Assembly: GCA_902568235.1 (NCBI GenBank)
Contig: CACFPS010000003.1
Location: 62,001 to 126,000, forward strand
Direction of reading: 5' to 3'
From: an uncultured Pelagibacteraceae bacterium
Lineage (GTDB): Bacteria; Pseudomonadota; Alphaproteobacteria; Pelagibacterales; Pelagibacteraceae
Length of the DNA: 64,000 nucleotides
Shown: positions 40,604 through 51,943 of the stretch, piece by piece
How the letters are laid out: the number at the start of each line of letters is the position of its first letter
Position numbering within the stretch: the stretch's first letter is position 1
Position numbers and translations under genes: made by a program
The notes under the pieces: model-generated
The model's database searches: none
The model's input: the letters and a program-made list of their open reading frames with translations, nothing else
Told to the model about the DNA's origin: nothing

Positions 40604-40673
40604 TAATTAATTTTGTTAATTTTCGTTGAATCTTTGAATTATGGTTTTATATTAAACTAGTTGGTTTTCCAAC

Positions 40674-40918
40674 TATGACGATAAACGAATTTCGTAATAA
40701 CCATTACGGACGTGGGGGCAGTACCCACCACCTCCACCAATTTCAACTTATGGGGGTGAATTAGGATCGACGGGTGTCTAAAAGTTGTTCTTTCGTCCGG
40801 TATTGTTCCGCCGTGATGGGCTAATTTATAAATGCTAACGAAAGTTACGCACTTGCAGCTTAATTAATTTATTAATTAAGTTACGGGGTTCGGGGCACCT
40901 GGCAACAGAACGCCCCTT
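40674..40918 (+). ncRNA. ssrA: Permuted two-piece tmRNA: acceptor piece ends ...CACCTCCACCA at 40739; coding piece starts GGGGGTG at 40752
   Basis: 7-bp acceptor stem GGGGGTG/CACCTCC plus CCA, T-arm-like GTGGGggcagtaCCCAC, AGGATCGACGGG tmRNA 5' motif, tag ORF GCTAACGAAAGTTACGCACTTGCAGCTTAA = ANESYALAA*. The 5' boundary of the acceptor piece is approximate. Confidence 0.9.
40892..40918 (+). repeat. tmRNA-tail repeat copy 1 (in tmRNA): ggggcacctggcaacagaacgcccctt
   Basis: Identical to 41757-41783. Confidence 0.95.
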
Positions 40919-40938
40919 AAAAAAAAAGTAAAATAATT

Positions 40939-41145
40939 ATGTCAAATATAATTCCTATTATTTTAGTTGTAGTAATGATTATTATTGCTGCATTTTTTAG
41001 AGGTTTGCTATGGGAGTATGGAAGAAGATTTGGTGATAAATATTATAGTTTTATTAAAAACGATGCCTGGAGAGAATGGTTTGGCGTTGCAACTTTGGTT
41101 GCAATAATTTGGGGTGGTGGTGCTATTTTGTTTCAACTAATTTAG
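40939..41145 (+). CDS. Small membrane protein of unknown function
   Basis: 68 aa ORF with TM segments at both ends. Confidence 0.6.
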   Translation: MSNIIPIILVVVMIIIAAFFRGLLWEYGRRFGDKYYSFIKNDAWREWFGVATLVAIIWGGGAILFQLI

Positions 41146-41160
41146 GATGTAGTTGAAACA
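41129..41160. terminator. Perfect 11-bp inverted repeat between convergent small ORFs
   Basis: TGTTTCAACTA-atttaggatg-TAGTTGAAACA; no long T tract. Confidence 0.45.
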
Positions 41161-41177
41161 GGAAACCTCCTTACTGA

Positions 41178-41405
41178 TTAATAATGTTTTTTTTTTCGTT
41201 CTTTTCTCCAAAGTATAAAAAATAACAGAATTAGTGCTGGTTGCAAAAAAACAAAAATAATAATGTTTATCGCCTCATATGATATTCCTATTAAATTTGC
41301 CAAATCAACCAGAACTATTACACAAACTTTAAAAACAAAGTCTATTAATTCAAACCCTGAATTTCCCATACTATTGTAAGCATCTATATATTTGCTCATA
41401 TTCAA
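41178..41405 (-). CDS. Small membrane protein of unknown function
   Basis: 75 aa, hydrophobic, no overlap with better ORFs. Confidence 0.55.
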   Translation of the reverse strand: MNMSKYIDAYNSMGNSGFELIDFVFKVCVIVLVDLANLIGISYEAINIIIFVFLQPALILLFFILWRKERKKKHY

Positions 41406-41493
41406 AATATAATATTTTTTTCTAAAAAGTATTGTCCAAATTTACAATTTTTCTTGGACAAGAACTTATTTAAATAAACCTTATATTAAAATC

Positions 41494-41733
41494 ATGATTA
41501 AAAATAAAATAAACAAATGGATCTTGTTTTTATATTTTTTAACTTTAGGTAACTATGCACATGCAAGAGTTATAAATGTCAACTCTTGCCCAGTTCCTTT
41601 TGACTTTACAGTCGCAGACTTTTGTGTGTTAAGTACAATTGGAATGTGGATTGCGGTTCCATTAATAATCTTTGCAGTTTATGTTGGTTTCGCCTTGTTT
41701 ACAGGAATAATAAGAAGTATATTTTCAAGATAA
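41494..41733 (+). CDS. Small membrane/secreted protein of unknown function
   Basis: 79 aa with N-terminal signal-like and C-terminal TM segments. Confidence 0.55.
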   Translation: MIKNKINKWILFLYFLTLGNYAHARVINVNSCPVPFDFTVADFCVLSTIGMWIAVPLIIFAVYVGFALFTGIIRSIFSR

Positions 41734-41756
41734 TTTAGTTAGGTGCCCTTAATAAT

Positions 41757-41783
41757 GGGGCACCTGGCAACAGAACGCCCCTT
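41757..41783 (+). repeat. tmRNA-tail repeat copy 2
   Basis: 27/27 identity with 40892-40918. Confidence 0.95.
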
Positions 41784-41828
41784 CTCATTAAATAAGTAAA
41801 GTGAATCAATATTAATTTGGTTTAGCGC

Positions 41829-41849
41829 AGCATACACTTTAGCATACAC
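41829..41849 (+). repeat. Paired direct repeat agcatacac, 12-bp period
   Basis: AGCATACACtttAGCATACAC. Confidence 0.8.
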
Positions 41850-41878
41850 CTTACAAAAAAAATTGGTTAATATAATTT

Positions 41879-42319
41879 ATGAAAGAATTAAAAATTATTA
41901 CATTAATTTTAAGTATTTTTTTTTTCACAAGTGATTTAAAAGCAAGTGCAAATCAATCTAAACCATTGTGGAAACAAGTTTCTGAATTAACTTGTAAAGG
42001 TGAATTTAGAATGGATTGCGCCAATGGAGATTGTACTAAAGGTGATTCAACGGCACTTTGGAAAATTGATTTTTTAAATAATTCTGTAATTTATATGAAT
42101 CACGATTTTAAAGAAAAGATTCATAGTAAGATTCATAAATTTTACGACATTATAAATAAATCATCAAATACTATTCATTTTGGTACGAGAATGATGTCAT
42201 TTGAAATAGATTTTTTGAAAAATTTGAAAGATGGTATTCCAAGTGTTGTTCTTGGAGTAACCATGTACGAAGAATATATGGATATCAATTCAACTTATTT
42301 TAAATGTTTCCCATCATAA
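41879..42319 (+). CDS. Secreted protein of unknown function
   Basis: 146 aa with signal peptide MKELKIITLILSIFFFTSDLKASA. Confidence 0.6.
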   Translation: MKELKIITLILSIFFFTSDLKASANQSKPLWKQVSELTCKGEFRMDCANGDCTKGDSTALWKIDFLNNSVIYMNHDFKEKIHSKIHKFYDIINKSSNTIHFGTRMMSFEIDFLKNLKDGIPSVVLGVTMYEEYMDINSTYFKCFPS

Positions 42320-42384
42320 AAATTTCAAGCAAACAGAACATACACTTTAGTTGGTAGCAAAAATTGAATTCTTAGATAGTTTTT

Positions 42385-42720
42385 CTATTTATCTTTTTTC
42401 CCTGGCATAAAAAAAAGATAAAGTTCAAATAAAATATTTACTATTGGAACAAAAAGAAGAAGAAATGCAAAACGATTTACTTCTAAATCATTTAATCTTC
42501 TGCAAATATTTGGGATAAGAAGAAATACGCCAAAAAAGAAAATTATCTGGAATAAAGATGGAAATCCACCCCAAAGAAAATCAAAAGTTAAAGTGTATAT
42601 AAAATAACCTACTGCTACAAAAATTATTATACCTATAGTAGTAAAAATAAAATCTAATCTTCCTGCTTTTTCAGAAAAAGAAAATATATTTATAAATCTA
42701 TGTTTAATACATTTAATCAT
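42385..42720 (-). CDS. DUF805-like membrane protein
   Basis: AGRLDFIFT...NICRRLNDLEVN resembles the DUF805 pattern GR.(E/D)F ... RRLhDl. Confidence 0.65.
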   Translation of the reverse strand: MIKCIKHRFINIFSFSEKAGRLDFIFTTIGIIIFVAVGYFIYTLTFDFLWGGFPSLFQIIFFFGVFLLIPNICRRLNDLEVNRFAFLLLFVPIVNILFELYLFFMPGKKDK

Positions 42721-42758
42721 TTTAAGTTTATTTCCTTATAGCAGAATTTTACAAAAAG

Positions 42759-42780
42759 AGCATACACCTAGAGCATACAC
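42759..42780 (+). repeat. Paired direct repeat agcatacac, 13-bp period
   Basis: AGCATACACctagAGCATACAC; same 9-mer as 41829-41849. Confidence 0.8.
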
Positions 42781-42823
42781 TTTTCACTTATTTGTTATTA
42801 AATATAGTAAGTAAATAAAGGAA

Positions 42824-42844
42824 CCCGGATACAGAACGCCCCTT
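42824..42844 (+). repeat. tmRNA-tail repeat copy 3 (degenerate): cccggatacagaacgcccctt
   Basis: ACAGAACGCCCCTT shared with copies 1 and 2. Confidence 0.8.
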
Positions 42845-42845
42845 T

Positions 42846-43181
42846 CTAATCGTAAGTTGTTGTGCTGCTAAAACCATCGTCACATTCTGATTTTATTTTT
42901 TTAATTTTTTTATCATATATACCAAATGTAGATGCATCTAAACCGTATCTTTCTACTGTACTTGTACAAGTTATCTTTTTTTCACCATAAGAATATGAGG
43001 TTGTATGCGTTTCTGTATCGGTATTTAAAAATTCATCAGCAGAAATCATACTATTATGAAGTTTTTTTAGAAAATTTTTACTCGCTTCTTCTTTCGAAAA
43101 TTTATTTGTCCCTGAGTTGTATCCTTTCATGTTACAAGCAACCAATAAAAACAAACTTAATATAACAAATAGTTTTTTCAT
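42846..43181 (-). CDS. Putative lipoprotein of unknown function
   Basis: Lipobox MKKLFVILSLFLLVAC. Confidence 0.65.
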   Translation of the reverse strand: MKKLFVILSLFLLVACNMKGYNSGTNKFSKEEASKNFLKKLHNSMISADEFLNTDTETHTTSYSYGEKKITCTSTVERYGLDASTFGIYDKKIKKIKSECDDGFSSTTTYD

Positions 43182-43182
43182 A

Positions 43183-43632
43183 TTAAAATGGTGCTTCGGA
43201 TTTAACTGAAAATCTTTTTATAACTGCTTCAATTACATTTTTCCAAATGCCGCCTAATAAACTTTCTTTATCATCTGCTTCCAGTGTCGCAATAAACCAA
43301 TCCTTATTTTTAAGTTTAAATCCAAGGTTTATTTTAAGATCTTTTCTCGTTTTATTTCCAGTAACCATTGCACCAATAATTGCACCCACACCACCAGTCA
43401 ACAATCCACCTACAACTGCTCCGCCAGTTTTTTTTAAAACACTTGTCTCTTTTATTGGTTTTGAGTTTTCGTCTAAGACTTTAAATTCTTTTACATCATT
43501 GCAAGAGATTTCAAATTTTTTCCCCATGCCTAGGACTTTATTTCCAATAATTATTTGATCTTTTTTAAGATGAAACAAGAAATCTCTTCCTATGTAATCT
43601 TTTTGATTTGATTGTGTAATTGTTATACTCAT
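43183..43632 (-). CDS. Protein of unknown function with glycine-zipper-like segment
   Basis: GGAVVGGLLTGGVGAIIGAMVTG. Confidence 0.6.
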   Translation of the reverse strand: MSITITQSNQKDYIGRDFLFHLKKDQIIIGNKVLGMGKKFEISCNDVKEFKVLDENSKPIKETSVLKKTGGAVVGGLLTGGVGAIIGAMVTGNKTRKDLKINLGFKLKNKDWFIATLEADDKESLLGGIWKNVIEAVIKRFSVKSEAPF

Positions 43633-43634
43633 CT

Positions 43635-43859
43635 CTAATTAGTTGCATTGCAACTATCTAACTTCCAACTTAGACTTTTGTCTTTATAAACACCTTGTCC
43701 AAGTGTTTTAACACAGTTTTTAACGTCTTGAGTTTGTTTTTCCAATCTAACCTCTGCTGGAGACTTTTCTTTTGGTTTTTCAGTTTTATCGTTATCAGAG
43801 CAAGAAGTTAAAAAACCAATCATCAAACCCAGAACCACAATGCCTAAAAGTTTTTTCAT
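43635..43859 (-). CDS. Small putative lipoprotein
   Basis: Lipobox MKKLLGIVVLGLMIGFLTSC. Confidence 0.6.
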   Translation of the reverse strand: MKKLLGIVVLGLMIGFLTSCSDNDKTEKPKEKSPAEVRLEKQTQDVKNCVKTLGQGVYKDKSLSWKLDSCNATN

Positions 43860-43881
43860 AAAGTAAGTTTAACCAAATTTA

Positions 43882-43955
43882 CAATGAAGTAATAGATCAA
43901 AAAAACCAACTAAAAACAAAATAAGTCTTTCTGACAATGAAGTTTGCAATGAAGT
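43882..43955 (+). repeat. Three direct copies of caatgaagt
   Basis: caatgaagt at 43882, 43935 and 43947; last two at 12-bp period. Confidence 0.75.
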
Positions 43956-43996
43956 GTTTTAATAAAGTGAATAAATATGCTATTTTCTAATCTAAT

Positions 43997-44018
43997 GCCG
44001 GGCAACAGAACGCCCCTT
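43997..44018 (+). repeat. tmRNA-tail repeat copy 4: gccgggcaacagaacgcccctt
   Basis: GGCAACAGAACGCCCCTT shared with copies 1 and 2. Confidence 0.88.
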
Positions 44019-44073
44019 ATAATGTATAACTAATTCTTTTTGACATTTAACCAATTTAATTTTAAAGTTTCAT

Positions 44074-44433
44074 ATGGACTTTGGAAAATCTATCTCATTC
44101 TGCTTCAGTAACTATTTTAATTTCAACGGAAGGGGTCAGCGATCTGAATTTTGGTGGTTTTATCTTTTTACTTGGATGTTGGCGATAGGAGGTAGTATTT
44201 TAGATTTCACAACAACTGGGTATGGTTACGGAATGTTTTATTATATTGCCAGTATTGCAGTATTTTTTCCTGCAATTGCCGCAGGATCTAGAAGATTGCA
44301 TGATTTAAACAAATCTGGATGGTGGCAGTTGATAATGATTACTATAGTTGGATTAATTCCTTTGGTAATTTGGTGGGCAACCGAAGGTGAGAAGAAGAAA
44401 AATAGATTTGGAGCACCTATCAAATTAAAGTAA
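44074..44433 (+). CDS. DUF805 family membrane protein
   Basis: FNFNGRGQRSEFWWFYLF ... GSRRLHDLNKSGWWQL is classic DUF805. Confidence 0.9.
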   Translation: MDFGKSISFCFSNYFNFNGRGQRSEFWWFYLFTWMLAIGGSILDFTTTGYGYGMFYYIASIAVFFPAIAAGSRRLHDLNKSGWWQLIMITIVGLIPLVIWWATEGEKKKNRFGAPIKLK

Positions 44434-44445
44434 AAAATTTAATTT

Positions 44446-44467
44446 GCCGGGCAACAGAACGTTCCTT
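44446..44467 (+). repeat. tmRNA-tail repeat copy 5: gccgggcaacagaacgttcctt
   Basis: Differs from copy 4 only at gcccc -> gttcc. Confidence 0.85.
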
Positions 44468-44493
44468 AATAATCAATCCACATTAAAACTTCG

Positions 44494-45087
44494 CTAAATA
44501 GGGTTATTAAACCAATCAGAGATTTCCTTTGTGCTCATTATAACTTGAAGACTATCTTTCCATCCATTTTTGATTTTTAAACTTTTTTTATACTTTGTGC
44601 AATTAATCTCAAAATAATCTCCCGACTTGAAAAAAAAACCAACGTTATGTGTAACGCTTTCACCTGTTGGATCCCAATCAAATTCAAATGAACCTTTATG
44701 TTTTTCAGCATTATCAAACATTGAAGAAAAATCATTTTCAATTTTCTTTTGTTTTGCAAAACATTCTTCTAATTTATCGTCATATGGATTCGATCCTTTA
44801 ATCATATAAATTTTGTAATGCTTATCTTTTGGTTTTACCATAAATGATAAATGACTATAATTTTCAAAGTTGCCAAACCAGTATACTTCTCCAAAATCAT
44901 CATTTAAATAATTGTATGAAGGTTTGTTCGTTTCTATTTCATTTATTATTTCTTCTTTGGAAAGATGATCTAACAAACTATCTCCAATACTTATGCCTTC
45001 CATCTCAAATTCAGATATGTCGTTAGAAAAAGAGAATGATGAAAAACTGAAGAAAATTAAAAACAGGTAAGTAGATAATTTTTTCAT
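44494..45087 (-). CDS. Secreted protein of unknown function
   Basis: 197 aa with signal peptide MKKLSTYLFLIFFSFSSFSFS. Confidence 0.65.
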   Translation of the reverse strand: MKKLSTYLFLIFFSFSSFSFSNDISEFEMEGISIGDSLLDHLSKEEIINEIETNKPSYNYLNDDFGEVYWFGNFENYSHLSFMVKPKDKHYKIYMIKGSNPYDDKLEECFAKQKKIENDFSSMFDNAEKHKGSFEFDWDPTGESVTHNVGFFFKSGDYFEINCTKYKKSLKIKNGWKDSLQVIMSTKEISDWFNNPI

Positions 45088-51169: not shown

Positions 51170-51943
51170 TTATCTAGATCTTCCACTGGTACTTTGAACT
51201 GCAGCAGCCCAAATTACAAGACCAAAAGCTATCTTGTTGATAAAATCAGCTAAGTTATAAATAACATTTAAAGAGTTCGGGTCTACTCCACCTACTAGGT
51301 AACCAAACACATACCCTAATGGATAAATCGCCCAACCTATTGTAACGATCATTCTCATAGCGCCCCAAGCTGTTGCTAATGGTTTGCTGCCACTTTTTGC
51401 AGCAATTTTACCAGCTTCACCTGAGAATATTTCATATAAGATATAGATCCATCCAGCCATACCAATAACGAAACCAAGCATAGCAGGAATATAATTTGCT
51501 TCACCTAAATATCCACCTATTAGCATTACCAAAGAACCTATTAACAATCTCCAGAATATTGCGCCTGGTATCTTTTTAACGGCTGCTAAAATTAAATAAA
51601 ATTCAATCATCTGTAAAGGAACAGTGATTAACCAATCAATATATCTATACACAGTTGGTGAGTCTCCAGTTTGAACCCAAACACCTCTCATATAAATATA
51701 GTGAATGAATGCTACACCTGTTACCAATCCTGCTACTGTTACCGATGTTCTCCAACCTGCTGCAACACTTCCTCTTTCCATGAAAAAGAAAACTGTAGCT
51801 GCTAACATACCCATTGAAATTACCCAAAAAGAAATTCCAACAAAGTCGTTAGATGCAAGTGGGATAGTTTCTGCATTTGCTACACCTGAAAAGCCTAATA
51901 TAGCTACAGCTGTTAGAACAAAAAATTTAAGTTTTTTCATCAA
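51170..51943 (-). CDS. Proteorhodopsin, predicted blue-absorbing proton pump
   Basis: RYIDWLITVPLQMIEFYLIL (D97, Q105, E108 in GPR numbering), NKIAFGLVIW retinal lysine, signal peptide, seven TM segments. Confidence 0.97.
   Translation of the reverse strand: MMKKLKFFVLTAVAILGFSGVANAETIPLASNDFVGISFWVISMGMLAATVFFFMERGSVAAGWRTSVTVAGLVTGVAFIHYIYMRGVWVQTGDSPTVYRYIDWLITVPLQMIEFYLILAAVKKIPGAIFWRLLIGSLVMLIGGYLGEANYIPAMLGFVIGMAGWIYILYEIFSGEAGKIAAKSGSKPLATAWGAMRMIVTIGWAIYPLGYVFGYLVGGVDPNSLNVIYNLADFINKIAFGLVIWAAAVQSTSGRSR

Follow-up and report, generated by a model that had tools for sequence, protein, structure and literature searches.

Small gene cassettes at repeated tmRNA tails in Pelagibacteraceae and their probable mobilisation in trans

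Introduction

Integron arrays, including the integrase-less clusters of attC sites lacking integron-integrases (CALINs), consist of small, often single-gene cassettes that carry no recombinase, share an end site and stand in one orientation behind a fixed anchor. Here we describe arrays of similar layout, starting from a 64,000-nucleotide stretch of DNA from an uncultured Pelagibacteraceae (SAR11) bacterium (GenBank assembly GCA_902568235.1, contig CACFPS010000003.1, positions 62,001 to 126,000; hereafter the window). The anchor attachment site in the window is the last 27 nt of ssrA, the gene for the permuted transfer-messenger RNA (tmRNA), and copies of this tail, which we call cores, separate the cassettes that follow it. 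The SAR11 cassettes are like those of integrons and CALINs in being small and recombinase-free and in ending in a shared site, in one orientation behind a fixed anchor. Unlike integrons, the SAR11 arrays lack IntI and attI, use a host RNA gene as anchor, have arm-like repeats at the cassette ends, and carry open reading frames (ORFs) most of which point towards the anchor. We found no integrase adjoining the arrays, in the way that IntI lies near attI, except in two lambda-type elements, here labelled L124 and L125.

Tandem islands at transfer RNA (tRNA) tails are already known. In Candidatus Methylopumilus the last 20 nt of tRNA-Lys are repeated in fGI-2, where islands of 330 bp to 42 kb encode mostly unknown proteins (PMC10872708), and the Candidatus Actinomarinales have additive flexible genomic islands with repeated tRNA 3' ends (PMC7771536); the excerpts of these two accounts used here give no recombinase mechanism for the small cassettes. 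As far as those excerpts go, the SAR11 arrays share with additive islands the direct repeats of an RNA-gene end that bound variable insertions, and growth from the RNA gene: repeats of the tmRNA 3' end flank insertions that vary among relatives at the same site. They differ from the islands so described in their permuted tmRNA anchor, matched arm-like ends, rare integrase elements, protein-gene anchors and family-wide spread. Tycheposons, as excerpted, measure 4-200 kb and carry a tyrosine recombinase (PMC10872708). With these and other satellite-like marine elements the SAR11 arrays have in common a tyrosine recombinase, an RNA-gene target and cargo, as in L125 with its integrase and DUF5906 protein, whereas most SAR11 units are shorter than 1 kb and lack a recombinase, which lies within the element only in L124 and L125. 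Elements that exploit Xer/dif insert at dif; the anchors recognised so far in SAR11 are tmRNA and gene 3' ends. For SAR11 itself, the hypervariable regions (HVRs) were reported to have no attC sites and an integrase gene in HVR2 (Wilhelm 2007, PMC2217521), and a later ecogenomic study leaves tmRNA unmentioned (PMC7318151). What appears to be new here is the tmRNA-anchored, integrase-poor array with matched end repeats, together with rare integrase elements.

Results

A first-pass annotation, made from the letters of the window alone, had reported the tmRNA tail five times in direct orientation, and we find all five copies where it placed them, on the plus strand (Table 1). The span of the Rfam alpha_tmRNA match identifies core copy 1 as the 3' end of the permuted tmRNA. 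Allowing up to three mismatches, CAACAGAACGCCCCTT has five matches in the window against 0.23 expected, and none of 100 shuffles gave five; a search of the whole genome (1.12 Mb, 79.7% complete) returned only these five copies. A sixth, GTTGAAACAGGAAACCTCCTT, ending at 41172, scores 6 against 5 for the best reverse-strand match, and its position is the border of a 0.6 kb cassette that stands alone in genomes G294 and G113 (its start is seen in L068 and L175); this is probably a decayed tmRNA-tail core.

The core is widespread in SAR11, as judged from genomes that are mostly incomplete single-cell or metagenome assemblies. A 14-nt core, at up to two mismatches, is present in 109 of 121 genomes of the genus, and the 14-mer shifted by one base, at up to one mismatch, in 165 of 197 genomes and 13 of the 14 genera of the family; a control with the reversed pattern of the latter 14-mer gave just a handful of matches. 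Among the records listed, the named ones with the core are Pelagibacteraceae single cells and metagenome-assembled genomes, plus two labelled Rhodobiaceae. Orientation is uniform: across 86 loci, all 181 cores at up to one mismatch share a strand with the other cores of their locus, and the opposite strand has none. Two or more cores occur in 56 of the 104 loci examined (a few loci overlap). The tmRNA is included in 35 of these 56 arrays and holds the first position in every one of the 35; another 34 tmRNA loci have a single core each.

Empty and filled sites differ exactly at the core. The tmRNA core leads directly into a tRNA-Leu(gag) flank in L037 and L073; in L067 and L095 it is followed by 1.6 kb and 2.0 kb, respectively, then by a second core and the same flank. 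Where rnhA and prx converge, a single core is present in L148; in five loci (L092, L056, L077, L140 and L039) at least one cassette, with a core at its end, precedes the prx flank seen in L148; and other relatives (e.g., L152 and L159) have no core. Single insertions into empty sites have little beyond the core in common with the target. The proposal that the tmRNA tail is an attachment site with tandem insertions, and that cassette presence should switch at the repeats, is thus borne out in other genomes, at tmRNA/tRNA-Leu as well as at rnhA/prx, and by the shuffling of cassettes between genomes. Further anchors are core copies just past the stop codons of protein genes, which we take from their sequences to be pnp, a homocysteine-methyltransferase-like gene and others. 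L148 and L076 each have a lone full tmRNA-tail core between rnhA and prx. In another locus (L220:3967-17620) a 13.6 kb cluster of surface-sugar genes is flanked by two cores, which suggests that large islands may use the tmRNA-tail site too.

The cassettes of the window recur at other positions or behind another anchor at 85-95% DNA identity. Cassette 1 stands fourth in the array of G210 (94% identity), behind a core that is not the tmRNA. Copies or part-copies of cassette 1b, 85-95% identical, are found in G294, G113, G079 and G058; it stands second at the tmRNA in G294 (92%) and heads the tmRNA array of G113 (85%), and the rnhA anchor of G079 has a part of it (95%). The 149-aa gene of cassette 3 comes first at the tmRNA in G228 (89% identical), and the right end of cassette 2 recurs in the same genome at 94% identity. 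As comparators, where comparable in the same genomes, thyX is about 81% and the tmRNA 86-88% identical; in G294 and G058, cassettes that are 91-92% identical stand beside thyX at 81-82%. Proteins of the window cassettes are present in 0-5 of 120 sampled loci, against 60 of 120 for thyX; the DUF805 protein of cassette 4 has homologues in 5 of these loci, and the proteins of cassette 2 have none in the 120. That cassettes are more alike than thyX and patchy in occurrence argues for horizontal transfer and not for shared descent. When the window array was used as a DNA query, a conserved downstream glycosyltransferase gene diluted the matches.

The conserved stretch of the distal cores runs from ACAGAAC to the tmRNA end, and the left half is variable: 69 tmRNA tails have three kinds of left half, against 77 kinds among 168 other cores. 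The idea that copies 4 and 5 came from hosts with other tmRNA alleles has to be given up, since GCCGGGCA is never among the three; it belongs instead to a widespread family of cassettes, whose right end it forms. Variable left halves are what integration that rebuilds an RNA gene predicts, as the right half must restore the tmRNA and the left half stays with the element, and element-borne left halves mean that copies 4 and 5 need no foreign allele. In the lineage of L070 and L071 the tmRNA tail reads GGGGCACCGGGTA, a variant that recurs across some 30 nt at the right ends of the cassettes, as though the cassettes had co-evolved locally with the tmRNA. The first-pass annotation also held that hairpin potential was not conserved between copies. 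This fits window copies 3 (0.0 kcal/mol) and 5 (-1.6 kcal/mol) and fails in general: the distal cores of 89 cassettes fold better than controls, with a mean of -6.7 kcal/mol versus -1.5 for the fixed right arm joined to random local sequence, although the excess over composition-matched shuffles is modest (mean z -1.0). Hairpin potential in the core is common, with variable stem spacing; a terminator, inverted integrase sites or the tmRNA's own structure may account for it.

The ends of the cassettes carry a second kind of repeat, for which we compared 83 cassettes longer than 330 bp. They range from 0.34 to 6.2 kb, typically below 1 kb, and 47 of the 83 hold a single ORF; 100 of their 145 ORFs point towards the anchor (minus) and 45 are plus. 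Different cassettes have end sequences in common, up to 170 bp long on the right, while the cargo differs. Many ends bear paired short direct repeats whose sequence differs by family and matches across the two ends of one cassette. The match between left and right repeats averages 10.01 for a cassette's own pair and 7.23 +/- 0.16 for permuted pairs (2000 permutations, maximum 7.87; n=83), and 28 cassettes, against an expectation of about 4, lie above the 95th percentile for mismatched pairs. These paired end repeats resemble lambda-type arm sites, a role that we propose for them from sequence. Within the window, GCATACAC has four copies in the 64 kb versus 0.57 expected, two at either end of cassette 2 and none outside. 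Cassette 3 has a conserved right end of about 170 bp, of a family common to more than ten other cassettes, and the stop codon of its first ORF lies within 5 bp of the left core. Elsewhere the cargo includes a type I restriction-modification system, type II methyltransferases, an MrcB-like protein and a GIY-YIG homing-type endonuclease; by these family assignments, some of the cargo is anti-virus defence genes.

Only one of the cassettes sampled has an integrase. The first-pass annotation had supposed a recombinase that acts in trans or has been lost, which agrees with the lack of an enzyme in nearly all sampled cassettes; of 399 genomes, only two have integrases of the type found in L124 and L125, each located at the tmRNA core, and the two share 52% identity. 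The complete L125 element runs for 6.17 kb from tmRNA core to core, with the integrase just inside the first core, a DUF5906 primase/helicase-like protein and five small ORFs. In L124 the integrase lies within 100 bp of the tmRNA core and the contig ends shortly after; its left repeat, GGCGTCATGGTGGCGTCA, reappears unchanged as the right repeat of L069, an integrase-less cassette of another genome. Further relatives of the integrase are at most 34% identical; they come from other genomes and, where we inspected their neighbourhood, sit at other sites.

Both integrases have a Pfam Phage_integrase match and conserve the catalytic R, HxxR, H and Y in an alignment of 14 sequences. Their sequence matches are to the P2, HP1 and lambda integrases, the best PDB match being 5c6k, a phage integrase that the fold search named P2. 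A structure predicted from the 14-sequence alignment (pLDDT, predicted local distance difference test, 88.8) has the Tn1549 and lambda integrases as its best PDB fold matches, with a full-length alignment to lambda Int, and an N-terminal domain of three strands plus a helix that, in this model, looks like an arm-binding domain; the N-terminus has no Pfam arm-domain match. In sequence, fold and catalytic residues the two appear to differ from the lambda, P2 and Tn1549 integrases by ordinary divergence only. Viral relatives are only 23% identical. A viral origin of the core was considered and set aside, as the exact matches from IMG/VR (L120-L123) fall within unrelated coding regions and were taken as chance hits, and the phage collection gave none.

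Related enzymes occur at other SAR11 sites. L126, L129, L130 and L131 are satellite-like elements that encode a large primase-like protein together with an integrase of the arm type, and a related integrase lies beside an apt-like gene in L127, L128, L132, L213 and L217, followed in some by genes like those of type I restriction-modification. Most genomes also contain, once, a resident tyrosine recombinase of about 317 aa (L108, L096-L116; G000:C8:1693-2232 in this genome), flanked by an MGMT-like gene and by the gene that opens a variable sugar/glycosyltransferase region. Directly after the recombinase stop codon, almost every genome has a different gene; the 3' end of the recombinase gene therefore marks the border of a hypervariable region. 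We set this XerD-like enzyme aside as a partner of the arrays because none of the copies looked at is near one.

The window cassettes (Table 1) carry no recombinase, and their cargo is two DUF805 proteins plus small exported, membrane or unknown proteins. Beyond core copy 5, the probable remnant has no recognisable distal core, and the family of its 197-aa exported ORF is also present in other arrays. Elsewhere in the window, 15639-15714 matches the rhtB sRNA family of Rfam (75.7 bits), and a 257-aa ORF at 51170-51943 presumably encodes a proteorhodopsin-like protein.

Table 1. Features of the tmRNA-anchored array, by position in the window
Feature	Position	Strand	Evidence
ssrA, permuted two-piece tmRNA	40622..40919	+	Rfam alpha_tmRNA 228.8 bits; ARAGORN
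Core copy 1, tmRNA tail GGGGCACCTGGCAACAGAACGCCCCTT	40892..40918	+	
Cassette 1a, one 68-aa membrane ORF (40939-41145)	40919..41172	+	
Probable degenerate sixth core, border of cassettes 1a/1b	41153..41172	+	gapped core scan, weak score
Cassette 1b, 75-aa (-) and 79-aa (+) ORFs, ends in core copy 2	41173..41783	+	
Core copy 2, perfect 27 nt	41757..41783	+	
Cassette 2, 146-aa exported ORF (+) and DUF805 ORF (-), ends in core copy 3	41784..42844	+	
Left arm-type repeat pair of cassette 2, AGCATACACTTTAGCATACACC	41829..41850	+	
Right arm-type repeat pair of cassette 2, AGCATACACCTAGAGCATACAC	42759..42780	+	
Core copy 3, left half element-specific	42824..42844	+	
Cassette 3, three minus-strand ORFs (111, 149, 74 aa), ends in core copy 4	42845..44018	+	
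AAYGAAGT repeats at 43883, 43936 and 43948, right-end family of cassette 3	43883..43955	+	
Core copy 4	43997..44018	+	
Cassette 4, DUF805 membrane protein (44074-44433, +), ends in core copy 5	44019..44467	+	Pfam DUF805 86.2 bits
Core copy 5, 2 mismatches	44446..44467	+	
Probable older cassette remnant, 197-aa exported ORF	44468..45087	-	

Discussion

Matched arm-type end repeats, extra anchors at gene 3' ends and a spread over 13 of 14 genera take the picture beyond the first-pass annotation. We give a probability of roughly three in four to the explanation that integrase-less cassettes are moved in trans by rare integrase-bearing elements and insert at the tmRNA tail. The 3' end of the tmRNA would be the chromosomal attachment site, and insertion would probably be carried out by tyrosine integrases of the lambda/P2 type. 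An incoming cassette would bring the right half of the core (ACAGAACGCCCCTT), and its insertion would restore an intact tmRNA at one end, with the left half that belongs to the cassette, plus a core, staying at the other end. A series of such insertions would produce a head-to-tail array. A rare element with the same core and the same arm repeats would supply the integrase that excises and integrates cassettes in trans; cassettes that have arm-like end repeats and no integrase of their own are likely mobilised in this way. That the L124 and L125 integrases act on cassettes, that the repeats are arm sites, and the route of the DNA between cells, we infer from the comparison of genomes.

Several points weigh against this explanation. 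Clearly matched ends are found in only 28 of the 83 cassettes, and some families bear repeats at one end only. Simple integration fails to explain the full cores after rnhA (27 nt) and other genes. In the genome comparison we saw no excised circle, attP or recombination event; we found no integrase for the GCATACAC or AAYGAAGT repeat families, which are those of the window, and no integrase element with a tmRNA-tail core in IMG/VR or the phage collection. The basis of the argument is, moreover, a comparison of mostly incomplete single-cell and metagenome assemblies.

An alternative explanation is that the resident recombinase of about 317 aa moves the cassettes as a housekeeping enzyme, like IntI in chromosomal integrons. 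A Phage_integrase match, nearly always of this type, is present in 216 of 300 genomes and in 38 of the 44 most complete ones, the enzyme is XerD/IntI-like, though well under every family cut-off, and a resident enzyme would account for arrays that are common where integrase-bearing elements are rare. However, every copy looked at lies at the edge of a variable surface-polysaccharide region with no array there, the many different end-repeat families are hard to explain by one resident enzyme, and the tmRNA core carries another type of integrase (L124 and L125), and we consider this explanation unlikely. It is quite improbable that turnover has proceeded solely by homologous recombination between cores or conserved ends, after ancient insertions. 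The right ends of up to 170 bp that are common to cassettes with different cargo are substrates for such exchange within arrays, and G228 has a cassette of mixed make-up; single insertions into empty sites, however, share little beyond the core with their target, and neither the single orientation throughout nor the matched end repeats fit this account. That the repeats are transcription terminators or another RNA element belonging to each gene, and not recombination sites, has very little to commend it: the GGGGC...GCCCC stem followed by TT, the better folding of distal cores than of controls (-6.7 versus -1.5 kcal/mol) and the many anchor copies that come after stop codons speak for it, whereas the repeat keeps one orientation while the genes do not (45 plus and 100 minus across the 83 cassettes), insertions start and stop at the repeat in exact empty/filled pairs, and window copies 3 and 5 have little or no stem. 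The core may have an additional role as terminator, besides being a recombination site.

Mobilisation in trans could be part of something broader, to which we give even chances: a dispersed, integron-like cassette economy of SAR11, in which several minimal cassette families share the tmRNA-tail core and differ in their arm repeats, each being moved in trans by a different visiting integrase, taking defence and envelope genes from genome to genome and seeding new anchors at other gene ends.

Gene gain and loss in the streamlined genomes of SAR11, which ranks among the most abundant groups of bacteria, are poorly understood, and the arrays offer a testable entry to the acquisition of single genes, including those for restriction-modification. 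The motif AACAGAACGCCCCT is a simple marker with which mobile genes can be mapped in single-cell and metagenome data. The arrays are also a natural case of cassettes that lack a recombinase and are not part of integrons.

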